Origin: Spirochaetes bacterium ADurb.BinA120
GTDB lineage: Bacteria > Spirochaetota > UBA4802 > UBA5368
DNA: 61,184 bases
Direction of reading: 5' to 3'
Assembly (NCBI GenBank): GCA_002069125.1
Contig: MVZN01000013.1
Span: 1-61,184 of the forward strand
The notes beneath the pieces are model-generated. The model was given only the letters and a program-made list of their open reading frames with translations, had not been told where the DNA came from and did not search any database. Positions 2,651 to 8,268 of this stretch are shown here, one piece after another. Within the stretch, counting starts at the first letter, position 1; each line of letters opens with the position of its first letter. The position numbers were made by a program, and so were the translations under genes.

Positions 2651-4015
2651 TTACAACTGCACCTTCGGCAGGTCGGTAAGCGCCTCCTCGATGAGCTTGG
2701 CCGGGTATTCGTAGTCGTCGAGCTGCCCGGAGAAATACCTTTCGTAGGAGGCCATGTCGAAGTGGCCATGGCCGCTCAGATTGAAGACGATCGTTTTACG
2801 CTTCCCCTCCTCCTTGGCCTTTATGGCCTCGTCTATCGCCGCGCGGATGGCGTGCGAAGACTCGGGGGCCGGAATGATGCCCTCGGTGCGGGCAAAGAGC
2901 ACCGCCGCCTCGAAACAGCCCGTCTGGCCTACGGCCACGGCGTCGATCACATTTTCGTGATACAGAAGGCTTAAAAGCGGCGCCATGCCGTGATACCGCA
3001 GCCCGCCCGCGTGAATGGAGGGCGGCATAAAGGTATGGCCCAGCGTGTACATCTCGACTATGGGCGCCATCTTGGCCTCGTCGCCGTAGTCGTAAACGAA
3101 GCGCCCCTTGGTGAGCGTGGGACACGCCGTCGGCTCGACCGCGAGGATTTTAACCTCCCTGCCATTGATCTTGTCGCGGACAAAGGGAAAGGCCATCCCC
3201 GAGAAATTCGAGCCTCCGCCCACACAGCCTATCACCACGTCGGGATAGTCGCCGACCAGCTCGAGCTGTTTACGCGTCTCAAGGCCTATTACAGTCTGGT
3301 GCATGCAGACGTGATTGAGCACGCTTCCCAGCGCATAGTTGGTGTCCTTGTTGGTCGCCGCCTCCTCCACCGCCTCGCTTATGGCGATCCCGAGGTTTCC
3401 CAGGTTATCGGGATCTTTGGCGAGTATCTCCCGGCCCACGCTGGTAAGGGGGCTGGGGCTCGGCGTTACGGATCCGCCCCAGGTCTCCATCATAAGCTTA
3501 CGGTAGGGCTTCTGGTCGTAGCTTACGCGCACCATGTACACATGGACTTTCATGCCGAAGTAATTGCAGGCCAGCGAGAGCGCGCTGCCCCACTGCCCGG
3601 CGCCCGTCTCGGTGGAGAGCTTGGTTATGCCCTCCTTCTTGTTATAGTAGGCCTGGGCCACGGCCGTATTGAGCTTATGGCTTCCGGCGGGGGATACGCT
3701 CTCGTTTTTAAAATAGATCTTCGCCGGCGTGCCGATGGCCTCCTCGAGCCTGCGCGCTCGCACAAGGGGCGAGGGCCTCCACAGTCGGTAGATATCGAGG
3801 ATCTCCCCGGGGATATCTATGTAGCTCTCCTGGCTCACCTCCTGCAGAATCAGCCCCATGGGGAATATGGCCCCAAGCTCCTCCGGGGTGATGGCCTTCC
3901 CTGTAGCGGGGCTTACGGGTGGGCTTAGTGGTCGGGGCAGGTCGGGAATGATATTATACCATTGCCGGGGCATCTCTTTTTCGGGAAGAAGTATTTTTGT
4001 CGATTCGTGTGGCAT
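2651..4015 (-). CDS. trpB: Tryptophan synthase beta chain, TrpB2 type
   Basis: PLP enzyme of 454 residues that joins indole (or a related acceptor) with serine to make tryptophan. It is the longer TrpB2 subfamily, marked by the extended N-terminus ([12 protein letters not shown]) and the length near 450. The PLP lysine is Lys114 in GSHKLNTA; the phosphate-binding loop is [10 protein letters not shown], and SGHGHFD near the end matches the subfamily. The ATG has an AAGGAGG site. No trpA lies beside it, which is common for TrpB2. A trp attenuator directly upstream (4054-4258) indicates control by charged tRNA-Trp and supports a real role in tryptophan synthesis. Confidence 0.93.
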
Positions 4016-4053
4016 GGTAGCCTCCTTCTATTGTATTTCGGCACGCCTGGCAC

Positions 4054-4090
4054 AAAAAAAGGGCTGCGGTTCTTTCGATATCCGCAGCCC
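4054..4090 (-). terminator. Attenuator terminator of trpB2 leader
   Basis: A perfect nine-base-pair stem (GGGCTGCGG with CCGCAGCCC) is followed on the minus strand by seven T, 39 bases before the trpB2 start codon. Because it lies between promoter and gene, it must be conditional. The sequence CGGATATC (minus strand, plus coordinates 4077-4084) overlaps its 5' arm and loop and is exactly complementary to GATATCCG at 4135-4142 in the leader gene; ACAGG next to the 5' arm pairs with CCTGT at the leader stop. Forming that antiterminator would break the terminator. Confidence 0.85.
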
Positions 4091-4113
4091 CTGTTTTCTC
4101 GTTGTCTGTTATT

Positions 4114-4176
4114 CTACAGGCACGCCAAAGCGCCCGGATATCTATGTCCGGTTGAACGCCACCAAGCCCAGTTCAT
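4114..4176 (-). CDS. trpL: trp leader peptide
   Basis: A 20-residue frame starting MNWAWWRST carries three tryptophans at positions 3, 5 and 6 and ends at a TAG 23 bases before the terminator stem. An in-frame ATG at 4206 would give a 30-residue version; neither start has a strong ribosome site. Downstream of the Trp codons, CCGGA can pair with TCCGG (1:2 stem), an alternative to the GATATCCG/CGGATATC antiterminator (2:3). This is the standard layout of ribosome-mediated attenuation: stalling at Trp codons frees segment 2 and lets trpB2 be read. Confidence 0.8.
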   Translation of the reverse strand: MNWAWWRSTGHRYPGALACL

Positions 4177-4228
4177 GGTGTATGCGCTGTTCGATCTCGT
4201 GCCCATCGGTCCGTGCCGTATGGGCGTG

Positions 4229-4258
4229 ACACTAAGGCTAAACGGGTAAAGCTGTCAA
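4229..4258 (-). promoter_or_regulatory. Candidate sigma-70 promoter of trpL-trpB2
   Basis: A perfect -35 box TTGACA (plus coordinates 4253-4258) lies upstream of the leader peptide. The best -10 candidates are weak (TAGTGT with 18-base spacing, CTTAGT with 16). Transcription would begin near 4222, about 45 bases before the leader ATG. Confidence 0.45.
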
Positions 4259-4540
4259 GTTTTTTTTTGGGGGGTGATGTTCCCTGCGGCAAAAATTTGT
4301 TCCAATCGCCTGGACATCCATCACCCGGCATTAGCGGGCGTTCGACCTTTTAGCAAATGCCGGTTTTTGGGCCAGGCCGAAGGGGCCCGCCTTCGCCTCT
4401 CCACATTTTATTTGACTGTATCGATAGGTAGGCGTAGGATAAGGGCATGTACGGCGAGGCCGGGCCCCGACTCCTCCGACGAGGGAGCGGACGAAGAAAA
4501 GCCTTCCCGATAAAAACTGATATTTCTGAGAAGCGGAATC

Positions 4541-7099
4541 ATGAGTGGAAAAACCGGAATCCTCGTGGTCAATGACGACCGGCAGGTGCTGGAGTTGACC
4601 CGCGCCATGCTGTCCCGCTCAGGCTTCGCGGTTCGGACCGCCACGGGCGTAGCCGCCGCCATGAAGGACCTCTCGGAGCACGGAGCGCCGGAGCTCGTCA
4701 TCACCGATATTTACATGCCCGACATCGACGGCTGGAGCTTCTGCCGGCTTCTGCGCATGCCCGAGTACGCGGAGTTCAACGAGGTCCCGGCGCTGGTGGT
4801 TTCGGCCACGTTTTTAAGCGACGAGATCCGCCGCATCAGCCTGGAAAACGGCGGCAGCGATTACCTTCCCATACCATTCTCTGCGGCGGAGCTCATCGAC
4901 AGGGTAAACGGCCTTTTATCCGGCGTAAAGGCGCCGGCCCGGAGCGACGCCCTGATAGCTGTGCCGGAGGCCGGGCGCAGGAACGCCATCGCCGCAGCCT
5001 TCGCGGCAAGGGGCATGAACGTAATCGGACGGGAGAGGCTTAATATCGACGAGTGCCTGGGCAAGGGCGCGCCGTCCATGATCGTTTACAGCGCGTCATC
5101 CGATGGGACCTCGTCGACCTCAAAGGTCCGGCAAATCCGCGAGGCGCGTCCGGACGCGGTGCTGATCGTACTGTCCGACAGGACCTCCACGGCTCCACGG
5201 GCGAGCTTTCTATACGCGGGCGCGGCGGGCGTGTATAACACGGATACGGACCCGGGCGCTCTCGCCGACGCCGCGGTTTCGGCCTCGAGACAATCGGCCT
5301 TTCTCCAGGCCGGCGCGCTCCTGAAGGAGAAGATAAACCGGCTCAAAGAGGAAGAGGAACGCTATCGCTTCCTCGTGGAGAACATCCCCGGCGCCATAGT
5401 CCGGCTGGATTCGGAGCAGCGCGTTCTGTACGCAAGCCCCGTCATAGAGCGGCTTACCGGGTACTCGCCGAAGGAGATGACCGGAAAGTTTATAAGAAAC
5501 TTCGTGCCGCGGGACGAGCTTGCCGGATTATTGGAACGCTACCAGGCGGCCCTCGCCGGGGTGAGGGGGCCGTTTGAATTAAGGATAGTGGACCGTGACG
5601 GAGGCGTACATCATATCCGAGCCTCCATACAGCCCCTCTTTACAGACGGAGCGTTTTCGGGCTCCACGGTTCTTCTGGACGACGTTACCGCCGAGAAAAA
5701 GGCGCGAAAGTCGCTCGAGTGGGAGCGGCACTTGCTGAACACGTTTATGGACAACTCGCCCGATTACATCTATTTCAAGGACCAGGAAAGCCTTTTTATC
5801 ATGGTAAATAGGGCCAAGGCGGCGCGCCACGGATTTGCCGATCCGGCCGAAATGTTCGGCACAAGCGATTTCGATTACTTTTCCCGGGAGCACGCCGCAA
5901 AGGCCCGCGCGGACGAGCTTCGGATTATGGAAACGCTGACGCCCATGGTTGACGTCCACGAAAGGCTAACATGGCCGGATGGGCATATATCGTGGGCCTC
6001 CACAACCAAGCTCCCCCTCCTCGATCTCGAAGGCGCCGTGATGGGCACATTCGGCGTCTCCCGGAGCATTACGGAACAAAAAAGGGCCGAGGAGGCCCTT
6101 CGAGAGGCGGAGCATACATACCGGGCGCTGGTGGACCACAGCCAGAGCATCATCTACACCATCGGCGCTGACGGCACGCTGGTCTTCGTCTCTCCGAGCT
6201 GGAAGACCATTTTGGGCCACGAGCCCTCTGAGATCATGGGCCGCGACTTCTGCTCCCTTGTGCATCCGGAGGACGTTCCGGCGTGCGAGGACTTTCTCAA
6301 AAGAACGGCCGAGACCGGCACCGTCCAGCCAGGGGTCGAATACCGCGTTTTCCATAGGAACGGAAGCCTGCGATGGCACCGCTCGGTGCTCACCCCGTTC
6401 CACGACGAGGAGAAGAACCTTACGCTTTTTATTGGCAACGCGATAGACCTTACCGAACGCAGACTGGCCGAAGACGAGGTAAAGTCCCTGCTCAAAGAGA
6501 AGGACCTGTTGCTGCGGGAGGTGCATCACCGCATAAAGAACAACATGGTCACCATCTCGAGCCTCCTTGCCCTGCAGGCGCGGAGCTCCGGGGACAACAG
6601 ATCGGCCGGAATTCTCTCCGAAGCGCAGGGGCGGGTGCGCGGCATGATGATGATCTACGACAGGCTGTACCGCTCCAAAGACTTCCGGAGCATCTCGGCG
6701 GCGGACTACCTGTGCGAGCTCGTTCGGGACGTTTCCGCCGTTTTCGCGGAATCATCTCGTATAACGACCGAGCTCCACATAGAGGATGTAGACATGGATT
6801 CCAAGATACTCTTTCCGCTCGGAATCATCGTAAACGAGCTCCTTACCAACGCCTACAAGTACGCCTTTCCGGACGGGCGCGGGGGGAAAATCGACATCGC
6901 CTTCAGAAGGCTCGAGGATGAAACCATGGAGCTCGTCTTTAGCGACGACGGCGTCGGGATGGACAAAGGGACCGCACCCGGCGCCCCCGACGGCTTCGGG
7001 CTGAACCTTGTGGACCTTTTGACAAAGCAGATAAAGGGCTCCCTCGAATGGAGCGTGAACAAAGGGACTCGATTCAGGATAGTTTTCAAGGAGGCCTGA
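4541..7099 (+). CDS. Hybrid PAS sensor histidine kinase (HisKA_2 type)
   Basis: Cytosolic signalling protein of 852 residues with no membrane segment. Order: receiver domain 5-120 with acidic pocket Asp12/Asp13 and phospho-acceptor Asp56 (TDIYMP); a second receiver-like fold about 138-250 lacking the acceptor Asp; three PAS domains (about 272-390, 395-515, 520-640); then a HisKA_2 dimerisation/phosphorylation helix with HHRIKNN (His662/His663) and an ATPase domain with N box at Asn765 (NELLTNAYKY) and DDGVGMD. The conserved receiver Lys-Pro is replaced by Ile111-Pro112, which would weaken the normal phospho-switch. No partner regulator lies adjacent. Confidence 0.9.
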   Translation: MSGKTGILVVNDDRQVLELTRAMLSRSGFAVRTATGVAAAMKDLSEHGAPELVITDIYMPDIDGWSFCRLLRMPEYAEFNEVPALVVSATFLSDEIRRISLENGGSDYLPIPFSAAELIDRVNGLLSGVKAPARSDALIAVPEAGRRNAIAAAFAARGMNVIGRERLNIDECLGKGAPSMIVYSASSDGTSSTSKVRQIREARPDAVLIVLSDRTSTAPRASFLYAGAAGVYNTDTDPGALADAAVSASRQSAFLQAGALLKEKINRLKEEEERYRFLVENIPGAIVRLDSEQRVLYASPVIERLTGYSPKEMTGKFIRNFVPRDELAGLLERYQAALAGVRGPFELRIVDRDGGVHHIRASIQPLFTDGAFSGSTVLLDDVTAEKKARKSLEWERHLLNTFMDNSPDYIYFKDQESLFIMVNRAKAARHGFADPAEMFGTSDFDYFSREHAAKARADELRIMETLTPMVDVHERLTWPDGHISWASTTKLPLLDLEGAVMGTFGVSRSITEQKRAEEALREAEHTYRALVDHSQSIIYTIGADGTLVFVSPSWKTILGHEPSEIMGRDFCSLVHPEDVPACEDFLKRTAETGTVQPGVEYRVFHRNGSLRWHRSVLTPFHDEEKNLTLFIGNAIDLTERRLAEDEVKSLLKEKDLLLREVHHRIKNNMVTISSLLALQARSSGDNRSAGILSEAQGRVRGMMMIYDRLYRSKDFRSISAADYLCELVRDVSAVFAESSRITTELHIEDVDMDSKILFPLGIIVNELLTNAYKYAFPDGRGGKIDIAFRRLEDETMELVFSDDGVGMDKGTAPGAPDGFGLNLVDLLTKQIKGSLEWSVNKGTRFRIVFKEA

Positions 7100-7320: not shown

Positions 7321-8268
7321 ATGTTCGAAAAGTCAATGATAAATTACGCCCTGGCGGCAATTATTTCCCTGGCCGCGACGAATGGCGCGTTTGCCGCGGG
7401 GTGGGAGTATTATTACCGCAAGGGGACCATCCAGTTCGAGGGCGGGCTTAACCGGAGCGCCACGGAAAACCTGGAGCGCTCGCTCGAGCTCAACCCGGCG
7501 CTATACGACGCCGCCAACAAAATAGCCGCCATCCTTATCGCCGGGAATAAAAAACGTCGGGCGCTCGATTACCTGGAGCGCTCGCTCGAGATCAAACCCG
7601 ACCAGGCCGAAATTCATGTAAGCGCGGGCGATATACGCGATTTCTTCGGTTACCGCGAAAAGGCCTTCGAGCATTACCAAAGCGCCGTCCGCGCCGATCC
7701 GTCGAACGTCGAAGCGCACTTCCGGCTGGTCCGTTATTACGCGGAACGAAGGGACACGGCAAACGCCGACCGGCATTTCGCCGCGGCATACGCCATAGGC
7801 GGCAGGGACGCCGAACGCATCCTGTCCGAAGCGCTCGAGGAGGAGCGCAGGAACAACGCGGCGGGGGCGCTGGCGCTGTATAAACGGGCCCTGGGGAAAA
7901 ACCCGGCCTTTCTGGAGGCCTATTTCCGCCTCGCCGAACTGCACCGACGGCTGGGGCGTTCCGACGAGGCCATTTCGGCGCTGGAAGAGGTAAAGAGAAT
8001 TAGGCCCGACAACGAAAAGGCCCATGTATATCTTGGCCATCTGTATTACGCGGCGCGGTACGGCTCCCGACGCAAATACCTGATTACTCAGGCCATACGC
8101 AATTTCGAGCGGGCCCTCGAAATTAACCCATCGAATCCCGAAACCCTCTTCGGCCTCTCCGAGGCGTACCGCCTTATGGGCGACCGCGACAGGGCCGACG
8201 AGCTGCGCGAAAGGGCGCTTTCGCTGGAGGGCGAACGAAAACCGGAGGCCGGGATCGGGCCCCGATAA
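7321..8268 (+). CDS. Exported TPR-repeat protein
   Basis: Protein of 315 residues with an N-terminal signal peptide (hydrophobic INYALAAIISLAATNGAFA) followed by tandem tetratricopeptide repeats; helical pairs with the ERSLEL/ERALEINP spacing are visible through residue 300. It should act as a periplasmic or envelope scaffold. The open frame extends to 7141 but crosses the tRNA-Phe gene, so the start is 7321 or the ATG at 7336, which begins the signal peptide more cleanly. It converges with another TPR gene whose stop is 26 bases away. Confidence 0.75.
   Translation: MFEKSMINYALAAIISLAATNGAFAAGWEYYYRKGTIQFEGGLNRSATENLERSLELNPALYDAANKIAAILIAGNKKRRALDYLERSLEIKPDQAEIHVSAGDIRDFFGYREKAFEHYQSAVRADPSNVEAHFRLVRYYAERRDTANADRHFAAAYAIGGRDAERILSEALEEERRNNAAGALALYKRALGKNPAFLEAYFRLAELHRRLGRSDEAISALEEVKRIRPDNEKAHVYLGHLYYAARYGSRRKYLITQAIRNFERALEINPSNPETLFGLSEAYRLMGDRDRADELRERALSLEGERKPEAGIGPR

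Follow-up and report, generated by a model that had tools for sequence, protein, structure and literature searches.

The trpL attenuator of Escherichia coli combines a Trp-rich leader peptide, alternative 1:2, 2:3 and 3:4 pairings of the leader RNA, and an intrinsic terminator with its U tract. Trp T-boxes (RF00230) relieve termination when tRNA-Trp is uncharged. Outside the Proteobacteria, Trp attenuators have been predicted in Actinobacteria (Corynebacterium and Streptomyces), and one of these stands ahead of 'trpB2A' in Corynebacterium diphtheriae (PMC1262725, in the passages concerned), where the gene so called shares a biosynthetic operon with trpA. The physiological role of TrpB2 is usually argued from enzymology, as indole salvage (relevant parts of PMC11085991), and the enzyme of Thermococcus kodakarensis has been studied for both Trp synthesis and indole salvage (Hiyama 2014, as cited in the same parts of PMC11085991). 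On the genetic side, the sections bearing on the gene place trpB2 within the trp operon of G. metallireducens (PMC2700814) and report a trpB-like T-box in Dehalococcoides (PMC2494555). Searches of the open-licence literature of PubMed Central turned up no description of Trp attenuation in Spirochaetota, and the passages concerned of PMC4833913, PMC2965389 and PMC1854888 do not describe a Trp attenuator in spirochaetes.

The element described here lies in a window of 61,184 nt, the whole stretch of DNA analysed, from Spirochaetes bacterium ADurb.BinA120. Direct reading of the sequence places a Trp-rich leader ORF, an antiterminator segment and a terminator all on the minus strand at 4258-4016, ahead of a stand-alone gene for a TrpB2-type tryptophan synthase beta chain (2651..4015, minus strand, 454 aa). 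We consider it very probable, judging from sequence and its conservation, that this is a classical ribosome-mediated transcription attenuator which makes trpB2 inducible by Trp starvation. Like E. coli trpL, it has a Trp-rich leader, 2:3 and 3:4 pairings, a candidate 1:2 pairing and a terminator with a U tract. Unlike trpL, it has no Rfam match and would govern a single trpB2 rather than a trp operon or, as in C. diphtheriae, a gene named with trpA; in addition, its stop codon is placed 3' of segment 2, and segment 1 comes just 3' of the Trp codons. It differs from a T-box too, in which the RNA binds the tRNA directly and no leader peptide takes part. The mechanism is classical, and the new part is the target gene, trpB2, together with the phylum. 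The gene is TrpB2-type and not canonical trpB, with 655.8 bits against TIGR01415 (cut-off 518.85) and 743.5 bits, again over the cut-off, against NF009057, while the canonical trpB model gives 164.9 bits, under its cut-off of 392.45. Its divergent neighbour (4541-7099, plus strand) encodes a large PAS-domain sensor histidine kinase with an N-terminal receiver domain.

Transcription would start from a presumed promoter made up of the -35 hexamer TTGACA (4253..4258, minus strand) and, 18 nt from it, a presumed -10 element TAGTGT (4229..4234) that matches the consensus weakly; both are kept in the five genomes of the genus (G000, the window's own assembly, to G004). The pair is not consensus sigma-70, and a promoter scan of the leader found no consensus promoter. 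The leader peptide with Trp at residues 3, 5 and 6 that the preliminary description had read is present as a short form of 20 aa, MNWAWWRSTGHRYPGALACL (4176-4114), ending in the stop codon TAG at 4116-4114. An in-frame ATG at 4206 gives a long form of 30 aa, MGTRSNSAYTMNWAWWRSTGHRYPGALACL (4114..4206 with its stop codon), and this upstream ATG is probably the start of the peptide because G002 lacks the internal one at 4176. Inspection by eye found no clear Shine-Dalgarno sequence for the leader ORF.

Downstream of the Trp codons, segment 1 (CCGGA, 4147..4151) pairs with TCCGG at 4138-4134 in the 1:2 hairpin. Segment 2 (GATATCCGGGCGCTT, 4128..4142) forms the 5' strand of the antiterminator, and segment 3 (AGGGGCTGCGGATATC, 4077..4092) serves both as its 3' strand and as the 5' arm of the terminator. 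The eight-base complement reported earlier is exact, GATATCCG at 4142-4135 matching CGGATATC at 4084-4077. So is the terminator as first described, a 3:4 hairpin at 4061..4090 in which GGGCTGCGG (4090-4082) forms nine base pairs with CCGCAGCCC (4069-4061) around a 12-nt loop, followed by seven T at 4054..4060. A generic terminator scan did not list this hairpin, because it accepts loops of 3-8 nt. The Shine-Dalgarno sequence of trpB2, AAGGAGG (4021..4027), is conserved in the five genomes of the genus. None of 200 dinucleotide shuffles folds as well as the leader itself (z -3.9); 4227 Rfam models run on 3900-4500 gave just two chance matches far under the gathering score, and the T-box model RF00230 had no match in the leader.

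Conservation was assessed in 59 related genomes, in which 46 TrpB2-type genes were examined for what lies upstream, one of them (G055) being cut at a contig end and left with no upstream sequence. A Trp-rich leader ORF with a terminator precedes trpB2 in 14 of the 45 regions that remain, and 13 of these, the window and 12 relatives, share one alignable design; they are uncultured spirochaetes of three families, with five genomes in the window's genus and three more elsewhere in its family, four in a second family and a single one in the third. In G048, the fourteenth, the leader reads WWWW and the hairpin is not the same, and the other 31 orthologues with upstream sequence show no such element. 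One of the genes surveyed, the trpB2 of G051, carries an internal TGA in its TrpB2 match. The earlier proposal that a stand-alone trpB2 is under attenuation in a spirochaete is thus supported by this conservation, by the TIGR01415 score and by the spirochaete affiliation of the relatives.

Within the 13 aligned genomes the arrangement is closely kept. Every leader ORF has its TGG codons, the Trp run of the relatives being TGGTGGTGG in most, with the third Trp codon of that run replaced in the window. The last TGG stands 16 nt from AUCCG in 12 genomes and 19 nt in the window, and the stop codon follows the start of AUCCG by 23 nt in eight genomes or by 11 nt in five, the latter from the two other families. 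Both the Trp codons and the antiterminator pairing, on whose survival in homologues the preliminary description had staked its reading, are kept in all 13. The AUCCG/CGGAU core of the antiterminator is invariant, and the pair next to it varies on both sides (UA, CG, GU).

The same alignment bears on the idea that a functional small protein is made from the leader ORF, with attenuation only secondary. A trans-acting role is reported for one such leader peptide, peTrpL of Sinorhizobium meliloti (PMC7298713, in the part concerned), and a GH-x-x-P pattern is indeed kept within one of our families; across the alignment, however, the peptide varies outside the Trp run (GHRYP, GHKDP, QDNIYP, GGSHHP) and reads YP, DP or HP at AUCCG, which is fixed as nucleotides. 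Because the amino acids differ where the bases do not, the constraint there acts on the RNA, and RNA pairing is the simpler explanation; we regard a primary role for the peptide as very unlikely. The five additional pairs between CCTGT and ACAGG that had been proposed for the antiterminator fared less well. Both sequences exist in the window (4120-4116 and 4094-4090), but ACAGG occurs only in G000 and G004, with ACAAG in G001, G002 and G003, and since just two of the five genomes of the genus have it we reject this pairing as an arm of the conserved antiterminator.

Pairing was scored across the 13 genomes. The terminator has 99.1% of its 117 cells paired and three pairs changed on both sides; none of 500 shuffles was as good on either the pairing or the covariation score, and sliding the partner strand lowers the pairing to at most 63%. 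The 2:3 antiterminator has 90.9% of 99 cells paired, again with three pairs changed on both sides, and was equalled on pairing by nine of 500 shuffles, its slid versions reaching at most 59%. As its core is invariant, the covariation here rests on few pairs. Extended to 14 pairs by the helices GGC/GCU and CUU/AAG, which take the place of CCTGT/ACAGG as its inner part, the antiterminator spans the terminator's 5' arm. This longer form is 88.7% paired, only modestly above shuffles, of which 26 in 500 equalled its pairing and 57 in 500 its covariation score. The 1:2 stem, which the preliminary description gave as CCGGA/TCCGG, is present, and in the relatives reads, by eye, CGGA/TCCG or GGRU/AUCC; it shows little covariation, and its 75.4% of cells paired is a count lowered by one family in which the stem is shifted by one base.

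These parts suggest the following sequence of events. RNA polymerase would start about 50 nt upstream of the leader's Trp codons. If charged tRNA-Trp runs low, a ribosome translating the leader would stall at these codons (residues 13, 15 and 16 in the long form) and cover segment 1. This would leave segment 2 (AUCCGGGCGCUU) to pair with segment 3 (in the relatives AAGGGCUGCGGAU); the antiterminator would take up all of the terminator's 5' arm, and transcription would continue into trpB2. With ample Trp, the ribosome would run on to the stop codon and block segment 2, or the 1:2 hairpin would catch that segment; the 3:4 terminator would then form and transcription would stop before trpB2.

When the nascent RNA is folded with a stalled ribosome occupying the last Trp codon, its minimum-energy structure contains the 2:3 core (four or five of its five pairs) in all 13 genomes; the helices GGC/GCU and CUU/AAG were seen in these stalled-ribosome folds. 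With segment 1 left free, the minimum-energy fold is still 2:3 in 11 genomes, and the 1:2 stem is chosen in two. Termination at Trp excess would therefore not follow from thermodynamics alone; most likely it depends on the ribosome reaching the stop codon, or else on the 1:2 stem folding earlier than 2:3. The footprint of a ribosome extends about 15 nt upstream of its P site, and a ribosome of ordinary footprint at the stop codon would cover segment 2 completely in the genomes with the 11-nt distance, and the inner part of that segment in those with 23 nt. The alternative structures might also act on translation of trpB2 rather than on transcription, and part of the region near AAGGAGG is indeed paired in the full-length minimum-energy fold. 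This we consider very unlikely, given that a T tract lies directly 3' of the hairpin and is conserved across the alignment, and that the Shine-Dalgarno sequence at 4027-4021 falls outside the conserved pairings.

Terminator-like hairpins are common, and the hairpin might be a plain or constitutive premature terminator behind a Trp-rich ORF that is only a chance reading frame. A filter for a short ORF with W-x(0-2)-W followed by a hairpin and a T run was passed by three of 4000 random 450-nt windows drawn from 80 trpB2 loci, as against 13 of the 46 spirochaete trpB2 upstream regions (a total that includes G055, which has no upstream sequence); it misses one true case, G006, which is found by a covariance model. 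Together with the conservation in 13 genomes of the Trp codons, the spacing of segment 2 and of the stop codon, and the 2:3 complementarity, this rarity makes a chance ORF very improbable. The covariance model, R1, was built from the 13 aligned sequences. On the window's own genome its matches were the leader at E 1e-26, the antisense image of the leader, and a weak one at E 4. In 392 genomes of the phylum it gave 13 strong matches, each of them upstream of trpB2, at E 2e-31 to 2e-19, the next being at 3e-5. These 13 are the sequences from which R1 was built, so that no further member was added, and within the 392-genome sample the design is confined to these 13 genomes. The weak matches (E 3e-5 to 0.01) are mostly ordinary terminators at gene ends among those read, a reading that left out L051, L064, L072 and L073, which have irregular flanks, and four matches without a locus. 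At one locus with a weak match (G041 C297:4393-4511, E 1e-4) a terminator hairpin stands directly ahead of an anthranilate-synthase-like gene, with no clear Trp run.

Probable control of trpB2 by Trp supply is not unique to this group. A cross-phylum survey listed the best 80 of at least 529 trpB2 matches, nine of which passed the filter: L168, which is really a T-box, four judged to come from genomes already counted above (G002, G004, G007 and G028), and L204, L206, L212 and L223. In these last four a Trp leader and a terminator precede the trpB2 of Desulfatibacillum alkenivorans (L204), of a Syntrophaceae MAG (L212) and of Prolixibacteraceae MAGs (L206 and L223). Their possible antiterminators were matched by 245 of 1000 shuffles in L212, 45 in L204 (scored on the second of its two hairpins) and 32 in L206, and in L223 none was better than shuffles (587 of 1000); all four are leads, to be treated as candidate attenuators only. 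Rfam models were run on 33 of the best 80 loci (of at least 529), and six of these, L168, L177, L189, L193, L203 and L208, have a T-box at the gathering score ahead of trpB2. In all six, by alignment for five and by the motif only for L177, the GAA of the specifier loop is followed by UGG, the codon in this position being, as we take it, the T-box specifier. One locus, L189, is labelled Desulfovibrio and the other five Bacillota or Lucifera butyrica. Two further T-box candidates were discarded: a regular-expression match at L174 is spurious, with no Rfam match, and L169 has the motif only, under the gathering score.

TrpB2 thus appears to have been placed repeatedly under Trp-starvation control. 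Whether it is a Trp-starvation gene across bacteria, which several phyla have each made responsive to tRNA-Trp charging (by T-boxes in Firmicutes-like genomes, and by leader-peptide attenuators in Spirochaetota and, it appears, also in Desulfobacterota and Bacteroidota), is in our estimate an evenly balanced question. If it is, TrpB2 would serve mainly to convert free or leaked indole to Trp at times of low charged tRNA-Trp, apart from the trp operon. Regulation by charged tRNA-Trp in the spirochaete group, with its parallels in other phyla, would tie trpB2 to Trp supply, and it would extend leader-peptide attenuation of Trp genes to Spirochaetota.

Within the phylum, 30 trpE loci were fetched, one of them (L088) without upstream sequence. 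In 17 of the 30, trpE is preceded by its own Trp leader and terminator, and these include all nine genomes that have the trpB2 attenuator and whose trpE was fetched; the trpB2 element is therefore not the oddity of one gene. Trp attenuation seems general in this part of Spirochaetota, with trpB2 as a separate second target. The trpE leaders resemble the trpB2 element of the same spirochaetes in having a WWW- or WWWW-type leader peptide and a terminator; they differ from it in a stem of GCCGCGGG type, often as two hairpins in tandem, and in being absent from the strong matches of R1. At L100, L101, L102, L104, L106, L107, L108 and L110 a pair of terminator-like hairpins, separated by about 50 nt, comes after the WWW/WWWW leader ahead of trpE.

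The window's own assembly gave no match to trpE, trpD or trpC. We do not conclude from this that the genes are lost, as the operon's neighbour in G003 and G001 lies in G000 at the very end of contig C69 and is cut on the operon side, so that the missing operon is most simply an assembly gap. The only trpBA of the assembly is on contig C14, where GC content goes from about 45% to 68%; in the segment 22000-41000 of this contig the jump falls near position 8000, and the trpB1-trpA pair is on the GC-rich side. This pair may come from another organism, the contig being chimeric.
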